Shown here: positions 28,364 through 63,430 of the stretch, piece after piece
Position numbering within the stretch: position 1 is the stretch's first letter
How the letters are laid out: each line of letters opens with the position of its first letter
Source: Verrucomicrobiota bacterium
GTDB taxonomy: Bacteria; Verrucomicrobiota; Verrucomicrobiia; Methylacidiphilales; UBA1321
Assembly: GCA_013286145.1 (NCBI GenBank)
Contig: JABDGH010000001.1
Coordinates: 1-64,000 of the forward strand
Reading direction: 5' to 3'
Length of the DNA: 64,000 bases
Program-made: the position numbers and the translations under genes
Notes under the pieces: generated by a model
Told to the model about the DNA's origin: nothing
The model's database searches: none
Seen by the model: the letters and a program-made list of their open reading frames with translations, nothing else

Positions 28364-30052
28364 ATGCCTGTGAAATCTATGTCGAAGTTTTTCCAGCCAA
28401 AATTAATTTCGTCGCTGAAAAACTATTCAAGCGCGGAATTCTTCGCTGACCTGGCGGCAGGAATCACCGTTGGGATTGTGGCGCTTCCACTCGCCATGGC
28501 TTTTGGCATTGCTTCAGGGGCAGGCCCGGCTGCTGGGATTTTCACCGCCATCATCGCCGGTTTTATTATCTCGGGACTGGGAGGATCGCGGGTACAGATC
28601 GGTGGCCCCACTGGCGCTTTTATCGTCATCATCTACGGAATCATCCAGAAGTACGGCCTGGCCAACCTGGCGGTCTGCACCATGATGGCAGGTTTCATCC
28701 TAATTCTCATGGGTGCTTCGCGGATGGGAACGATCATCCGGTATATCCCAAGACCGGTGACCGTCGGGTTCACCAACGGCATCGCCATCCTCATCTTCAC
28801 CACTCAAATCAAAGATTTCTTCGGGCTTAAGCTTGATCCCGTTCCATCAGATTTTGTCGAAAAAATGGGGGCTCTTTACCAGCATGTTTCAAGCTGGAAC
28901 CCAATGGCGTTTGGTCTTTCGGCCTTGTCCATGGCCATCATTCTTCTCTGGCCCAAGCAACTGGCTCGACGCATTCCCGGATCAATTGTCGCCGTCTTTC
29001 TGGCGACAATGGCAACGGTGTATTGGCATTTGCCGGTGGAAACCATTGGTTCGCGATTCGGAGGTATTCCGCAAAGCCTGCCCCCCTTCCACTTTCCAGA
29101 GATTAGCTGGATCCACATCCGTGATCTCATTCCTCCGGCCACGACCATCGCGTTGCTCGCGGCCATCGAATCGCTGCTTTCCGCTGTTGTCGCCGATGGA
29201 ATGATCGATGATCGCCACGATTCCAATCAGGAACTGATGGCACAAGGTTTGGCCAATATCGTGTGCCCGCTCTTCGGTGGTATCCCCGCCACGGGTGCCA
29301 TCGCGCGCACGGCAACCAACATCAAGAATGGCGCCAGGTCTCCGATAGCGGGCATTGTCCATGCGATCACCCTGCTCGTCATTATTCTGGTCGCAGCGCC
29401 ACTGGCTAAATTCATTCCCCTGGCCACTCTTAGCGCCGTATTGATCGTGGTGGCTTTCAACATGGGAGAGTGGCGTGAATTTCTCCTCGTTCGGCGATTG
29501 CCGGCAAGTGATGTCCTCGTCCTGCTAACCACATTTCTACTCACCGTTATTTTTGATCTCACGCTGGCGGTGGAGGTTGGCATGGTGCTGGCCGCCATGC
29601 TCTTCATCCGTCGCGTGGCCGACATGACGCAGGTGACGCTGGTGGATGAGGAGAGCGAGACGGAAGGTGAACACCATTCCGTCAAAGGCAAGGACGTGCC
29701 GCCGGGGGTGTTGATCTTTCGCGTGTTTGGCGTCCTGATGTTCGGGGCGGCGGACAAACTGGAAAATCTGCTATTACATGCAAAGCAGGAACCCGAAGTA
29801 ACCATTCTCAAAATGCAAAAGGTACTGGCGATGGATTCCACCGCGTTGGATGCGTTGGAGCGGCTTCATGAAAAAATCCGGCGACGCGGCAAGCATCTGA
29901 TCCTGAGCGGCCCTCACACCCAGCCGCTATTTCTCATGGAAAAGGCCGGTTTCGTTGATCAAATTGGAGCGGAAAATCTGGTTGGGGATATTGATGACGC
30001 TTTGGTTCGCGCCCGCCAGATTCTCGAATCCCAAAAAACGAATTCCCTCTAA
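28364..30052 (+). CDS. SulP family anion permease with STAS domain
   Basis: The 562-residue membrane protein belongs to SLC26/SulP, which carries sulfate, bicarbonate or organic anions. It has the LAAGITVGIVALPLAMAFGIASG entry helix, the GGPTGAF motif of the anion site, about 10-12 membrane helices, and a C-terminal STAS domain (about 440-555) with MDSTALDALE. The substrate cannot be read from the sequence. A second Met five codons in is an alternative start. The gene is preceded by 122 bp without a recognisable feature. Confidence 0.93.
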   Translation: MPVKSMSKFFQPKLISSLKNYSSAEFFADLAAGITVGIVALPLAMAFGIASGAGPAAGIFTAIIAGFIISGLGGSRVQIGGPTGAFIVIIYGIIQKYGLANLAVCTMMAGFILILMGASRMGTIIRYIPRPVTVGFTNGIAILIFTTQIKDFFGLKLDPVPSDFVEKMGALYQHVSSWNPMAFGLSALSMAIILLWPKQLARRIPGSIVAVFLATMATVYWHLPVETIGSRFGGIPQSLPPFHFPEISWIHIRDLIPPATTIALLAAIESLLSAVVADGMIDDRHDSNQELMAQGLANIVCPLFGGIPATGAIARTATNIKNGARSPIAGIVHAITLLVIILVAAPLAKFIPLATLSAVLIVVAFNMGEWREFLLVRRLPASDVLVLLTTFLLTVIFDLTLAVEVGMVLAAMLFIRRVADMTQVTLVDEESETEGEHHSVKGKDVPPGVLIFRVFGVLMFGAADKLENLLLHAKQEPEVTILKMQKVLAMDSTALDALERLHEKIRRRGKHLILSGPHTQPLFLMEKAGFVDQIGAENLVGDIDDALVRARQILESQKTNSL

Positions 30053-30099
30053 GAGCTTGCTGAAAATAGGGAATGTTCAGCAAACTCCCAACCAATCTC

Positions 30100-49130: not shown

Positions 49131-49202
49131 CCCACCATCTTCAAAAAACCACGGCCAAAAGGCAAGAGCCTATCCACTTTTGATTAAAGAACCTCACCGC
49201 AA

Positions 49203-49437
49203 GTAGCCGCCGATGTCCCTATCGGCGGGACCTCCCTCCGTAGTAGCCCTCATACCTTCAGATGTAGCGGCGGTCTATGACCGTCGATCCCAAGGTAGCC
49301 GTTGACCGCCGGGCGACGGTGCAGAAAATTCCCGCGCTCGGCGATCACGGGCTACCCATAAGCCGAAGCAAGCTGCGGGGGGGGGGGTATCCAAGGTAGC
49401 CGCCGCTGGCCCAGCGGCGGTCAGGTGCAGAGAAAAA
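49203..49437. repeat. Family C repeat cluster
   Basis: Several units share a GTAGCCGCC or GTAGCGGCGG start followed by a palindromic core: 49203-49231, 49264-49293, 49294-49328, 49333-49357 and 49396-49437. Two end in GGTGCAGA. A related unit lies inverted at 63400-63430. Each unit can fold as a short GC-rich hairpin. Confidence 0.7.
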
Positions 49438-49704
49438 GAGGCAGGCACGGAAACATGATTGCAGACCCCAGGAACTTGCTGAAAAGGGCCCGTCATCCCG
49501 AGCTTGTCGAGGGATCAGACACATTTTCATTTCCCGAAAAGTTTAACGATCACGGAAAGACCCTGAACTCCAACGATCCAACCTGTTGATTATTCCTAAC
49601 GCGTCTGATCCCTCGACAAGCTCGGGATGACGGATTTTTTAAAAAGCCTTTTTCTGCAAGCGCCTAGACGAGATTCAAGGCGGCTGCGTGCCTGTTCTCT
49701 TTTC
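49433..49704. repeat. Family B element split by a family A element
   Basis: The left half of family B (GGCAGGCACGGAAACATG on, 49433-49472) and the right half (CGCCTAGACGAGATTCAAGG on, 49661-49704) match the intact copy at 50811-50889. Between them lies a family A palindrome with perfect 30-bp arms (49491-49520 and 49603-49632) and outer arms CTTGCTGAAAA and CTTTTTCTGCAAG. The pentamer CCCAG/CCTAG occurs at both junctions but once in the intact copy. Confidence 0.8.
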
Positions 49705-49802
49705 TACTTTTTTTGCTATTTCAAAAGCTTAGGGAATTATCTCCTAGGCATACGGTGCATTGGGCGTGACGAGGGAGGGTTAGACGGGCAGACTTCCAAA
49801 TC

Positions 49803-50759
49803 ATGCATTCGTTGGGGGCCGTGCTTCTCATTTTCCTTGTGGGCATTGTCGGGCCTATCCTCTTGGAGAGACGCTTGAAAAAGGTTCCAGAGTTAGTCTG
49901 GAAAATGATCGAGTTAGCCACGATCTTTGGCATTCTTCTGATCGTGGCATTTTATGATCCTGTTTATGATAGGCTTTGGGGCAAAAAAATTTCACCCTTC
50001 TGGTCAACCGCGTTTGTTTCCGCGAGTACCGCTACCCTGGCTGGATTTGCTTGGTGGCTTTTTGTTGTATCCGGTGTGAAGGCAGTTTCTTCATCAGTGT
50101 CGTCGCCTAAATCGCCGCCCCTGCCAACTGCGCCACAAATTGCGCCCCAGGAGATGATTGTGCCGCCTACTGCAAAAACTGCGCTGGAGCCACAGCCAAC
50201 TTCTCCTTCATTAGCGGATACAAATACTGCGCCGATTGATTGGCCTTCTGCCGTGCCGATTGTTCGTGATACACAATTGCAAATTAAAGCCAAAGCTGAA
50301 CTAGAAAAACAACAACGTGAAGAAGCGCAAAAAGCGGCCACACTCGTCTGTTCGTCGGCCTTTGATTATGCCATCACAACCTTAAGAGATAAGCTTAAGT
50401 CTATGGCAATGGAGCATGGTGATGATTTCTCATCAGATTATTCGGGCATGCCCGTGGTTATTTCGGAAACTGAAACACTTATAAAAATGAGAGGTAATGT
50501 AAACTGGAATTTTAATATTTCCCTTGCTGGGGGTGGAAATATTTCAATGACTATTTCGTATGTAGGGAATGATGAATATCAGCGGCTAGCCTTTTTAGTT
50601 TTTACCCCCGATACTCATACTATTTTTTGTATAGTAAATGACTACGAAGGGGGAACTATTTTTAACAAAACATCTTTGATTCAGAATTGTAGGCCGACAA
50701 TCAACGAGATGTTACGACAATTATATGCAGTACAGATTCTTCACATAAAGAAAGGTTGA
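49803..50759 (+). CDS. Orphan two-helix membrane protein
   Basis: The 318-residue protein starts with two to three membrane helices (about 5-25, 37-52 and 70-92), continues with a Pro/Thr/Ser-rich linker (about 95-150), a short charged helix, and a C-terminal domain of alternating strands (about 190-318). I recognise no family. The 3' half of the gene is clearly more AT-rich than its neighbours, which suggests later acquisition. Repeat clusters flank it on both sides. No clear ribosome site precedes the ATG. Confidence 0.6.
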   Translation: MHSLGAVLLIFLVGIVGPILLERRLKKVPELVWKMIELATIFGILLIVAFYDPVYDRLWGKKISPFWSTAFVSASTATLAGFAWWLFVVSGVKAVSSSVSSPKSPPLPTAPQIAPQEMIVPPTAKTALEPQPTSPSLADTNTAPIDWPSAVPIVRDTQLQIKAKAELEKQQREEAQKAATLVCSSAFDYAITTLRDKLKSMAMEHGDDFSSDYSGMPVVISETETLIKMRGNVNWNFNISLAGGGNISMTISYVGNDEYQRLAFLVFTPDTHTIFCIVNDYEGGTIFNKTSLIQNCRPTINEMLRQLYAVQILHIKKG

Positions 50760-50810
50760 GTATGAATCTCAAAGAAGCTCAAAAAAAGAATAAGCTCTCT
50801 CATTTTGTGG

Positions 50811-50889
50811 AAAAAAGGGACAGGCAGGCACCGAGACAGAATCGCAGGCCCTAGGCGAAATTCAAGACTGCTGGGTGCCTGTCCCTTTT
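50811..50889. repeat. Family B palindromic repeat, intact copy
   Basis: The element runs from AAAAAAGGGACAGGCAGGCA to TGCCTGTCCCTTTT, with an inner pair GCAGGCCCTAGGC and a tail AAATTCAAGACTGCTGGG. It has inverted ends of about 14 bp. It follows the orphan membrane-protein gene by about 50 bp and could serve as its terminator, which is inference. Confidence 0.8.
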
Positions 50890-51041
50890 GCCATGGTAGG
50901 GACGGCGATTCCTGCGCGTAAGCGCAAAAGCTATTCGGGACATCCGATTTGAAAAGACCGAAGAAAAGGGAACAGGCATATTTACGGCGGACATTTTGAA
51001 TCCTTAGTCAGGGCGATCCGCTTTTCTCGTTCTATTTCTTA

Positions 51042-51263
51042 TTATTCAGCAACAGAACCTTGTTTTCCAACTTTGCAGTTTGAGGTTGATGCCTGTAACC
51101 GTTTGGCAAAATCAATGGTTTCCTCGAGCCAGATTAGTTTTTCACGAAAAGGGCGGCTGGCTCCTCGCCGAAGCTGGGCTAATCGGTGGCTCTCCCAATC
51201 GCAGGGCCACTGTTCAGAATCGGAAATCATATATTTATCATGAATAGCTTGGAGAAACTTCAC
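51042..51263 (-). CDS. Small partner protein of nucleotidyltransferase
   Basis: The 73-residue product (GTG 51263; alternatively ATG 51230) is Arg/Glu-rich and helical: WESHRLAQLRRGASRPFREKLIWLEETIDFAKRLQ. Small proteins with an H-R-x-A-Q-L-R / F-R-E-K-L-x-W-L-E-E pattern are often found downstream of AbiEii-like nucleotidyltransferases. It overlaps the nucleotidyltransferase gene by 26 bp (or follows it by 7 bp with the ATG start), so the pair is one operon. A toxin/antitoxin or modulator role is an inference from arrangement. Confidence 0.65.
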   Translation of the reverse strand: MKFLQAIHDKYMISDSEQWPCDWESHRLAQLRRGASRPFREKLIWLEETIDFAKRLQASTSNCKVGKQGSVAE

Positions 51264-51741
51264 GTAGTCGATTCATATCGATTTGGTCTTGATCGCGCCC
51301 TGCTTCGGCTTTCATGGCGATCAAGGTGGAAAGCGCTACGATGGGAATTTGTATCTCACTTGAGACATTGTACCATTTTGCCCGGGCATACTCCATGTCA
51401 AAGCTAAAGGGTTCTGATGCAAAAAGGTCAATGGGGACATCCGGATATTGATCGCTGATAAGCTGAAACACTTTCATGTTCTTTTCAACTTGCCATTGGT
51501 GCCGGGATTCGGGTTTTGCAAAATCCTGAAGTTTGACCGGAACCAGGGGGCGATAGCCGAGTGATTCCAAGGCGCTCAGGGTGCGTGAAACGCATTCAGG
51601 CGAAAGATCCAGCACGAGATCCAAATCCTGCGTCAATCGGGTATAACCATGCGCGATAACAGCTATGCCTCCCACGACGAGATAACGCGCCTCCGCTTTT
51701 TTCAGCGCAGTAAATATGGCTTCGAGACTGGCTACTTTCAT
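51238..51741 (-). CDS. Nucleotidyltransferase (AbiEii/DUF6036-like)
   Basis: The 167-residue protein has a nucleotidyltransferase core: ARYLVVGGIAVIAHGYTR (about 18-35) with the Gly-Gly helix start and LTQDLDLVLDLS with the Asp-x-Asp metal site, then VPIDLFASE as the third acidic strand. This arrangement occurs in AbiEii-type toxins and in small housekeeping nucleotidyltransferases. No DNA-binding antitoxin is upstream; the partner is downstream. Upstream (51742-51833) lies a half copy of repeat family B. Confidence 0.8.
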   Translation of the reverse strand: MKVASLEAIFTALKKAEARYLVVGGIAVIAHGYTRLTQDLDLVLDLSPECVSRTLSALESLGYRPLVPVKLQDFAKPESRHQWQVEKNMKVFQLISDQYPDVPIDLFASEPFSFDMEYARAKWYNVSSEIQIPIVALSTLIAMKAEAGRDQDQIDMNRLREVSPSYS

Positions 51742-51790
51742 CGGAAGAACGATGCTCTTTTACGCAAGGATTTGGCAAGCATTCTAAAGA

Positions 51791-51833
51791 TAAAAGGGGG
51801 CAGGCATGGAGCCAAAATCGCAGGCTATTGGCG
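51791..51833. repeat. Family B half element
   Basis: A copy of the left half only, from AAAAGGGGGCAGGCATGGAG to CGCAGGCTATTGGCG. It abuts the stop codon (TAG, 51834-51836 complement) of the following conserved gene, and its right half is missing. Confidence 0.75.
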
Positions 51834-53249
51834 CTACGCCTTATACCCGAAAAAGAAATTGTCCTTGATGCAGGCGGCCACCTCGGGAGGGACCATCTGT
51901 TCCCAAGTGTGATCGCGATCACGAATCTTGGCCAAAATGGCCCGCGAAAAGATGCCGAGATATTCCTTGTGGAAATTTTCAATCGATTCGATGTAACCGT
52001 TTTCCGTCAAATGCTTGAACAAATGGATGAGGTGTTCCGGCAATTCGACATCGTGGATCGTCGTCAATCTGTCCAATGAGGCGTCAAGGAACGGATAGAC
52101 ATAGAGCTTGAGATCGTTCTTAAAGAGCCGCCCGAACGATTCGAGAATGCCCCCCTCGAGCATGTCGTAATACTTCACATCAAAGAGTTCCTTGAGATTT
52201 GGAATGCCCAGGACAATTCCGATCCGGCTCTTGGTGTAACGCTGGAGATACGCGGCCAGCTTGTAATATTCCGCATAATTGGAGATCAACACCATCTTGC
52301 CCACGGCGGTGATCGTGTCGGCGCGGGCGAGAAAATCGCGGTGATCGATGGAACCAGTCGTGAGCAGGTTGCGCATCGTGATCTCCATCAGCTCGACGAT
52401 TTCCTCCTGCTTCACTTCGGCATCGCGCAGGAACTGCTGGCGCGCGCCGTCGAGCATGTCGAGATTGACGTTGGTGACGGGACGAAAACTTCCGCGCTCA
52501 ACCAGGATCGGCTTTTTATGAAAGACCTCCGACGGCTGGAGCACATCGCCGTTCGCGCCGATGAGCGTCGCATTGGAAAGCCCCTTTTCGACGAGTTGCA
52601 GGCTCATCAGCCGGTTATCGACGTTGTTGAAGTAGGGCCCGATGAACTTGATCATGTCCACCTCGATGCGCGCAGTGGAGAGGCCGTCGAGCAGCGAAGC
52701 GATCAACTTTTGTGGTTCGGCGTGAAGATAAAATGCGCCGTACGTGAGGTTCACCCCGATAATCCCAAGCGCTTCCTGCTGCTGGAGGTTCTCCTTATCG
52801 ATCATGTTGACGTGAATGATGATCTCGCTCGAATGAGCCTGCGGTTGCAGTTGGAATTTGATGCCCAGCCAGCCGTGACATTCGTTCGTCCCGAGGTAAT
52901 TGCGGGCGGAGACGGTATCGGCAAACACGAAAAAAGAAGTGGAGGGACCCCGCTTGGCATTGAGCCGCTCGATCAGCAACGCAAATTCGTAATCGAGCAT
53001 GTTCTGCAACCGCGTCTGGCTGACGTAACGTTCACCCTTGCCGTAGATGGCATCGGAGAACGCCATGTCGTAAGCCGAAATCGTCTTGGCCAATGTGCCG
53101 GAAGCTCCGCCCACGACAAAGAACCAGCGCGCCACCTCCTGCCCCGCGCCGATCTCGGCAAAGGTGCCATAAAAGCGTTTATCCAGGTTGATCTGCGAGG
53201 CCTTCTCGTGCGTGGTGATCGTGGAGGTATTGAGATTTTCTAATTCCAT
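51834..53249 (-). CDS. Conserved protein of uncharacterised family
   Basis: The 471-residue protein lacks a signal peptide or membrane helix. It is recognisable as a widespread conserved family by blocks such as FAEIGAGQEVARWFF, AKTISAYDMAFSDAIYG, YVSQTRLQNMLDYEFALL, ECHGWLGIKFQ, EALGIIGVNLTYGAFYLH, VDNRLMSLQLVEKGLSNA, VERGSFRPVTNVNLDML and YYDMLEGGILESFGRLFKNDLKLYVYP. Public annotations of related proteins are inconsistent, calling them TonB-dependent receptors or nicotinate-nucleotide adenylyltransferases; I see neither family's signature. It is divergent from the FkbM gene with 165 bp between. Confidence 0.8.
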   Translation of the reverse strand: MELENLNTSTITTHEKASQINLDKRFYGTFAEIGAGQEVARWFFVVGGASGTLAKTISAYDMAFSDAIYGKGERYVSQTRLQNMLDYEFALLIERLNAKRGPSTSFFVFADTVSARNYLGTNECHGWLGIKFQLQPQAHSSEIIIHVNMIDKENLQQQEALGIIGVNLTYGAFYLHAEPQKLIASLLDGLSTARIEVDMIKFIGPYFNNVDNRLMSLQLVEKGLSNATLIGANGDVLQPSEVFHKKPILVERGSFRPVTNVNLDMLDGARQQFLRDAEVKQEEIVELMEITMRNLLTTGSIDHRDFLARADTITAVGKMVLISNYAEYYKLAAYLQRYTKSRIGIVLGIPNLKELFDVKYYDMLEGGILESFGRLFKNDLKLYVYPFLDASLDRLTTIHDVELPEHLIHLFKHLTENGYIESIENFHKEYLGIFSRAILAKIRDRDHTWEQMVPPEVAACIKDNFFFGYKA

Positions 53250-63367: not shown

Positions 63368-63430
63368 CTCGTTCCCAAGTTGAACTTGGGAACGAGAAAA
63401 TCTGCGACGGTCATAGACCACCGCTACATT
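63368..63430. repeat. Family D unit next to an inverted family C unit
   Basis: The family D palindrome CTCGTTCCCAAGTTGAACTT with arm TTGGGAACGAG lies at 63368-63396. It is directly followed by CTGCGACGGTCATAGACC (to 63430), the inverse of the family C unit at 49264-49293. Both lie between the converging TPR and isomerase genes and may end their transcripts, which is inference. Confidence 0.75.

Follow-up and report, generated by a model that had tools for sequence, protein, structure and literature searches.

CGTC-tagged REP dimers have no dedicated transposase: none was found adjacent to them, and their mode of movement was left open (Di Nocera et al. 2013, PMC3733652). They were recorded in five phyla, Verrucomicrobiota not among these, and some of them sit within palindromes, which was noted without explanation; in H. 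neapolitanus, all CGTC-1 dimers lie within a 41-bp palindrome, GGGaaGCTT-GAAAaACC (PMC3733652). QMITE2 of Coxiella burnetii, an element of 150-190 bp whose shorter copies resemble plain REPs, is itself the target of another element (PMC5896051). These palindromes and QMITE2 are related cases, already on record, of the arrangement described here, in which a family B repeat is split by an element, D[A], that encloses a family A palindrome within outer arms D. The window (the whole stretch of 64,000 nucleotides that we analysed) is the start of a contig of a Verrucomicrobiota bacterium.

Family A shares with the CGTC REPs a CGTC/NGTC tag, an AT-initial hairpin, head-to-head dimers with spacers and the lack of a dedicated transposase; unlike them, it has a tandem G.A mismatch in the hairpin and a CAG, not CCA, tail (PMC3733652). 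The D palindrome resembles by eye the 41-bp palindrome of H. neapolitanus and goes beyond that case in two ways: it carries target duplications, and an orthologous site lacks the whole unit. Like QMITE2, D[A] is a REP-containing MITE with terminal inverted repeats and direct repeats; unlike D[A], QMITE2 has a GTAG-type REP and direct repeats of 7-11 nt, and there is no sequence relation between the two (PMC5896051). A likeness to TIRYT/RAYT-linked inverted repeats (PMC3733652) concerns the target B, whose ends flank a Y1 transposase in a relative (G006), and not the insert.

We favour nested transposition as the origin of the locus, with a probability of roughly 0.78. The target would have been a family B repeat, an inverted-repeat element of 79 bp whose ends match the Y1-flanking ends in the relative, and D would be a miniature inverted-repeat element with CGTC-like REP hairpins (A), paired head to head as a dimer, at its centre. 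A DDE transposase acting in trans, most likely of the IS1182 family (YTAR target, GAGCYTGYYGR-type ends), would have moved D[A] into B at CTAG, where a 4-bp stagger led to the duplication of CTAG; one copy would later have become CCAG, and A would have travelled as a passenger. We infer the order of events as B first, then D[A], and a nest of this kind gives the relative ages of repeat families at a single place.

The split family B repeat and its insert

Direct reading of the sequence places a split family B repeat at 49431-49704, cut precisely at its central CTAG, with 192 bp parting the two halves (Table 1). The cut falls at the conserved B centre, GCAGACC-CTAG-RCGARATTC. When the halves are joined with one CTAG kept, the uninterrupted centre of the other B copies is regained, and alignment with 17 B copies of the same genome is gap-free at and around the junction; family B has 28 matches in this genome, 17 of them at E<=1e-8. 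The nearby intact copy carries its CCCTAGG at the position matching the junction. The original prediction of a B repeat interrupted by an A-containing insert is thereby confirmed, and the empty family B sites that it sought exist in paralogous form, as 17 uninterrupted copies in the genome.

Table 1. Positions, in the window, of the split family B repeat, its insert and related repeats
Feature	Position	Strand	Basis
Left half of interrupted family B repeat, ending in the duplication copy CCAG	49431..49471	+	Gap-free junction against 17 B copies
Left 4-bp target duplication, CCAG (CTAG with one transition)	49468..49471		Sequence; family statistics
D[A] mini-element, MITE-like, without transposase ORF	49472..49663		Terminal inverted repeats and target duplication; other copies in the same genome (L003, L005) and in relatives
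D terminal inverted repeat, left (short arm), GAACTTGCTGAAAAGGGC	49472..49489	+	Pattern search
Family A REP unit, left: CGTC tag, ATCCC..GGGAT hairpin, CAG tail	49491..49519	+	Sequence; arm survey; folding
A-dimer spacer (138-bp core of class AGACAC)	49520..49603		Core classification
Family A REP unit, right, inverted	49604..49632	-	Sequence; arm survey
D terminal inverted repeat, right (long arm), GCGCTTGCAGAAAAAGGC on the minus strand	49646..49663	-	Pattern search
Right 4-bp target duplication, CTAG	49664..49667		Sequence; family statistics
Right half of interrupted family B repeat	49664..49704	+	Alignment of joined halves
Intact family B repeat, same orientation as the split copy, uninterrupted CCCTAGG	50811..50889	+	Sequence; B search; alignment
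35-bp D-like palindrome without A, flanks CTAA/CCAA	30053..30087 (30049-30091 with flanks)		

The repeat at the two junctions is 4 bp long and has one mismatch, a transition. A small target duplication with one mismatch had been proposed, and this part stands; 4 bp (CCAG/CTAG), however, describes it better than the pentamer CCCAG/CCTAG, the extra C at the right junction being the final base of the insert. About one third of D duplications differ by such a T-to-C or A-to-G change (CTAG to CCAG or CTGG). The change from CTAGG to CCAGG at D duplications, as at 49468-49471, may be the one expected from very-short-patch repair.

The inserted unit consists of outer inverted repeats GARCTTGCTGAAAAAGGC ("D") around the A palindrome, with the 4-bp duplication outside them. 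It starts with GAACTTGCTGAAAAGGGC and finishes with GCCTTTTTCTGCAAGCGC, and the family D consensus is GAGCTTGCTGAAAAAGGC. Outer arms and an A palindrome with perfect arms of about 30 bp had been predicted; both are present, and the perfect arms measure 31 bp (49490-49520 / 49603-49633), extending to 36 nt at 94% identity. The insert folds at -92 kcal/mol (z -12.3), far past chance. A fold of this stability could suggest a structure retained for transcription termination or as an RNA hairpin, with the split of B as a side effect; we regard this as highly improbable, given that the insert lies between divergently oriented genes (scpB on the minus strand, a 318-aa ORF on the plus strand), that a simple terminator scan gave no site on it, and that the target duplication would be left unexplained.

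The two B copies, in direct orientation, surround the 318-aa ORF, which has no Pfam match. Both belong to a segment of about 2.7 kb (49173-51834) that contains several repeats, the split B, the 318-aa ORF, the intact B and a 167-aa ORF; the relatives G003 and G006 have no counterpart of it in the interval from scpB to the following gene. Because the segment is missing there, the split copy has no orthologous B for comparison.

Copies of D[A] and their target sites

The D arms, which were searched independently of A, enclose A palindromes elsewhere in the same genome (L057 and L059; remnants at L056, L062, L095 and L107) and in three other species of the genus, and a scan of named genomes matched the outer-arm pattern to Candidatus Methylacidiphilales MAGs. 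Nearly all complete D copies hold A. A search for A-free D palindromes in 12 genomes (exact 8+8-bp arms, loop <=30) returned one convincing copy, that at 30053-30087 in the window, and one probable chance match in G007. The D frame is steady, with arms of about 20 and 36 nt; in 26 of 27 cases with both ends (G000, G003, G005 and G006) they fall within 19-23 and 30-38 nt. The core varies between 81 and 138 bp, and that of the copy in the split B is 138 bp, of class AGACAC. D[A] has several features of a MITE: it is short (typically 135-192 bp), has terminal inverted repeats GAGCTTGCTGAAAAAGGC and a 4-bp YTAR target duplication with an empty site, and lacks a transposase ORF.

The analysis of the duplications used 30 D[A] elements with both ends present, drawn from four species of a single Methylacidiphilales genus; the 4-mers flanking these elements are YTAR-like. 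Since a target preference shared by both sides would alone give similarity, left and right 4-mers were re-paired randomly 20,000 times. The two sides agreed at a mean of 3.03 of 4 positions, as compared with 2.55 after shuffling (p 0.0001), and 11 pairs were identical, as compared with 5.0 (p 0.002). Seven of the 30 loci came from a pattern that demanded YTAR on one side, which cannot produce agreement between sides. The YTAR flanks of D[A] are therefore a duplication, beyond a mere preference. At L112 the G003 element is absent from the matching place in G004, where the flanks are continuous without the 154 bp; a second G003 element (L226) is absent in G005 too, with flanks that align less well. 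The comparison of filled and empty sites in relatives, proposed originally, thus succeeded for a sister D[A] but not for the split B itself.

These observations bear on the reading in which the D arms form a palindrome that A prefers to land in, with the YTAR flanks belonging to this palindrome and the arms not being transposon ends. Such a reading would account for the variation of A types between genomes inside a fixed frame and for the near absence of D without A, as reported for H. neapolitanus (PMC3733652); palindromes that act as targets are described for other CGTC dimers. It is nonetheless improbable, because left and right 4-mers co-vary, the entire D[A] is missing at an orthologous site, and B is interrupted by D[A]. 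Because the REP-enclosing palindrome has transposon-type duplications and an empty orthologous site, nested transposition would mean that at least some REP dimers travel as cargo of DDE mini-transposons.

Several D insertions (L039, L111, L113 and L119) lie at TAG/TAA resembling gene stop codons, where a YTAR duplication would restore the stop. A small palindrome, GCACACACGTGTGGC, within the A arm at L111 (1560-1590) and L112 (6440-6460) in G003 forms an extra nesting level.

Family A within the D frame

Family A is abundant: with up to 3 mismatches allowed, the genome has 125 arm sites in forward and 117 in reverse orientation, and the reversed control gave 0. Among 193 arms the tag is CGTC in 80, TGTC in 44, AGTC in 38 and GGTC in 30, which corresponds to the tag of CGTC REPs (CGTC, or TGTC, CCTC) with the first letter relaxed. 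The tail is CAG in 170 of the 193, as opposed to the three nucleotides, mostly CCA, of CGTC REPs, and therefore we call A CGTC-like. CGTC REP stems have 8-9 bp, starting A-T, T-A, and a loop of 4-5; the A stem, ATCCYGAG-CTTGT-CGARGGAT, has eight positions, two of them G.A mismatches, and minimum-energy folds show only part of it. The fifth pair (Y-R) of the hairpin co-varies (103 T-A, 89 C-G, 1 mixed), a pattern that two subfamilies could also yield. The units are arranged as head-to-head dimers with spacers of several classes.

Stand-alone A copies showed no target duplication at any offset tried, and A was rejected on this ground as a transposon with duplications of its own. They are plentiful in G002, which has one D-like site only. 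From these two results together it follows that A has spread independently of D. The cores held by D are of class AGACAC or AGCYYC in the genome of the window, AGKTC or AGCYYC in G003, and TCTAA in G005 and G006. Since at least three A core types occur within one and the same D frame, A is a passenger of D, probably acquired more than once; the constancy of the frame suggests repeated acquisition, or repeated replacement via recombination between A arms. In a tree of 39 A cores, in which most forks are unresolved, D-borne copies did not cluster (8 changes, as compared with 8.3 after shuffling). The same internal position of the same frame holds at least three dimer cores, in different genomes or even in the same one, and for this reason we tentatively entertain, at rather less than even odds, that CGTC-like REP dimers have spread in part within a DDE mini-transposon frame that has an exchangeable central REP cassette, swapped or inserted repeatedly and dispersed with YTAR duplications. 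The split B locus illustrates how one class of bacterial hairpin repeats, although no mover is known for it, can be carried as a passenger.

The original prediction had family A itself as the moving unit, inserted into B perhaps by a REP-associated tyrosine transposase, which would make the outer arms part of the target. A is indeed abundant and REP-like, and the search for a Y1/RAYT gene that had been suggested found one RAYT-like gene in the genome; this gene, however, is flanked by unrelated repeats. Intact B copies lack the outer arms, which in four species accompany A at sites that are unrelated, and the target duplications lie outside the D arms. Bracketing of the transposase by A arms, the arrangement of a RAYT-mobilised REPIN, was seen at none of 30 Y1 loci from 11 genomes. 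Movement of A by such an enzyme is accordingly very improbable, the 4-bp YTAR duplication being of DDE type and IS1182 elements sharing the target and having similar ends; as the moving unit, A is replaced by D[A], whose ends are the outer arms.

Within the A arm (for example at 49500-49510) lies GAGCYTGTCGR, which is close to the IS1182 end GAGCCTGTCGG of G008, maybe by chance or through common origin.

Candidate transposases for D[A] and for family B

Duplications of four bases at YTAR are indicative of a DDE transposase. In a genome of the same order (G038), six IS1182-family copies (NF033551 339 bits, curated cut-off 270; DUF772 and DDE_Tnp_1) have ends CAGCCTGTCGG and duplications CTAG/CTAG (five) or CTAA/CTAA (one). 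An IS1182 element in a genome of the same taxonomic family (G008) reads CTAG-GAGCCTGTCGGGTTTAA ... CTAG and is bounded by CTAGGAGCCTGTCGGG, and in G012 a truncated IS1182-like gene starts beside GAGGCTGTTGAAAAAGG. D[A] thus has the same target duplication as the IS1182 elements of its clade (six G038 copies; CTAG in G008). Agreement between D ends and IS1182 ends is confined to about GAGCYTGYYGR, and GAGCTTGCTGA matches the IS1182 end GAGCCTGTCGG only if transitions are allowed. If the insertion is accepted, target and ends make an IS1182-family transposase the quite probable mover of D[A].

YTAR targets are known for other DDE families too. The same nested insertion could be the work of one of these (for example, IS5- or IS701-like), since the family is undecidable from the target sequence alone and no autonomous element with D's own exact ends, IS1182 copies included, was found in the genus. 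Given the IS1182 elements in the same taxonomic family and order that combine this target with similar ends, we consider such a mover rather unlikely and retain the IS1182 family. PF05598 is absent from G000, G001, G003, G004 and G005; NF033551 gave only sub-cut-off matches, none with D-like ends, in the genome of the window (a 2.33-Mb assembly of 103 contigs, estimated 66% complete) and in G002, G004, G006 and G007. The Y1_Tnp and IS1182 models had no match within the window, and no autonomous D copy was found within 2.5 kb in any locus of the set. Two candidates for such a copy were rejected: L108 (Deltaproteobacteria), with its left end inside an acyl-CoA dehydrogenase-like gene and just a short GCTGAAAAA-type palindrome after it, and a 1.4-kb element at L111, which is two separate adjacent repeats.

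Tyrosine transposition may explain the target family B, not the D[A] insert. In G006, a Y1 transposase is enclosed by perfect inverted repeats of 20 bp that repeat the B ends, AAAAGGGGACAGGCA, and this one locus (L163) gives B, through its AAAAGGGGACAGGCATCTTT inverted repeats, the TIRYT-linked arrangement. The only RAYT-like gene of the genome of the window (L037, G000:C2, 540-1250) is flanked by inverted repeats GGGTGGCCCGGACAACTTGTTGTCCGGG, a further repeat family. The sequence TGTAGCGGCGGTCTATGACCGTCG, present beside the split B (49263-49286) and at 63405-63428, is an inverted repeat that flanks Y1 transposases in relatives (L159, L166, L170 and L177). Three B copies on different contigs (L020, L021 and L024) have about 60 bp of right flank in common (CTCGCGCTTTCCCGGCTGAATTCC...), and B may belong to a longer repeat at these places.
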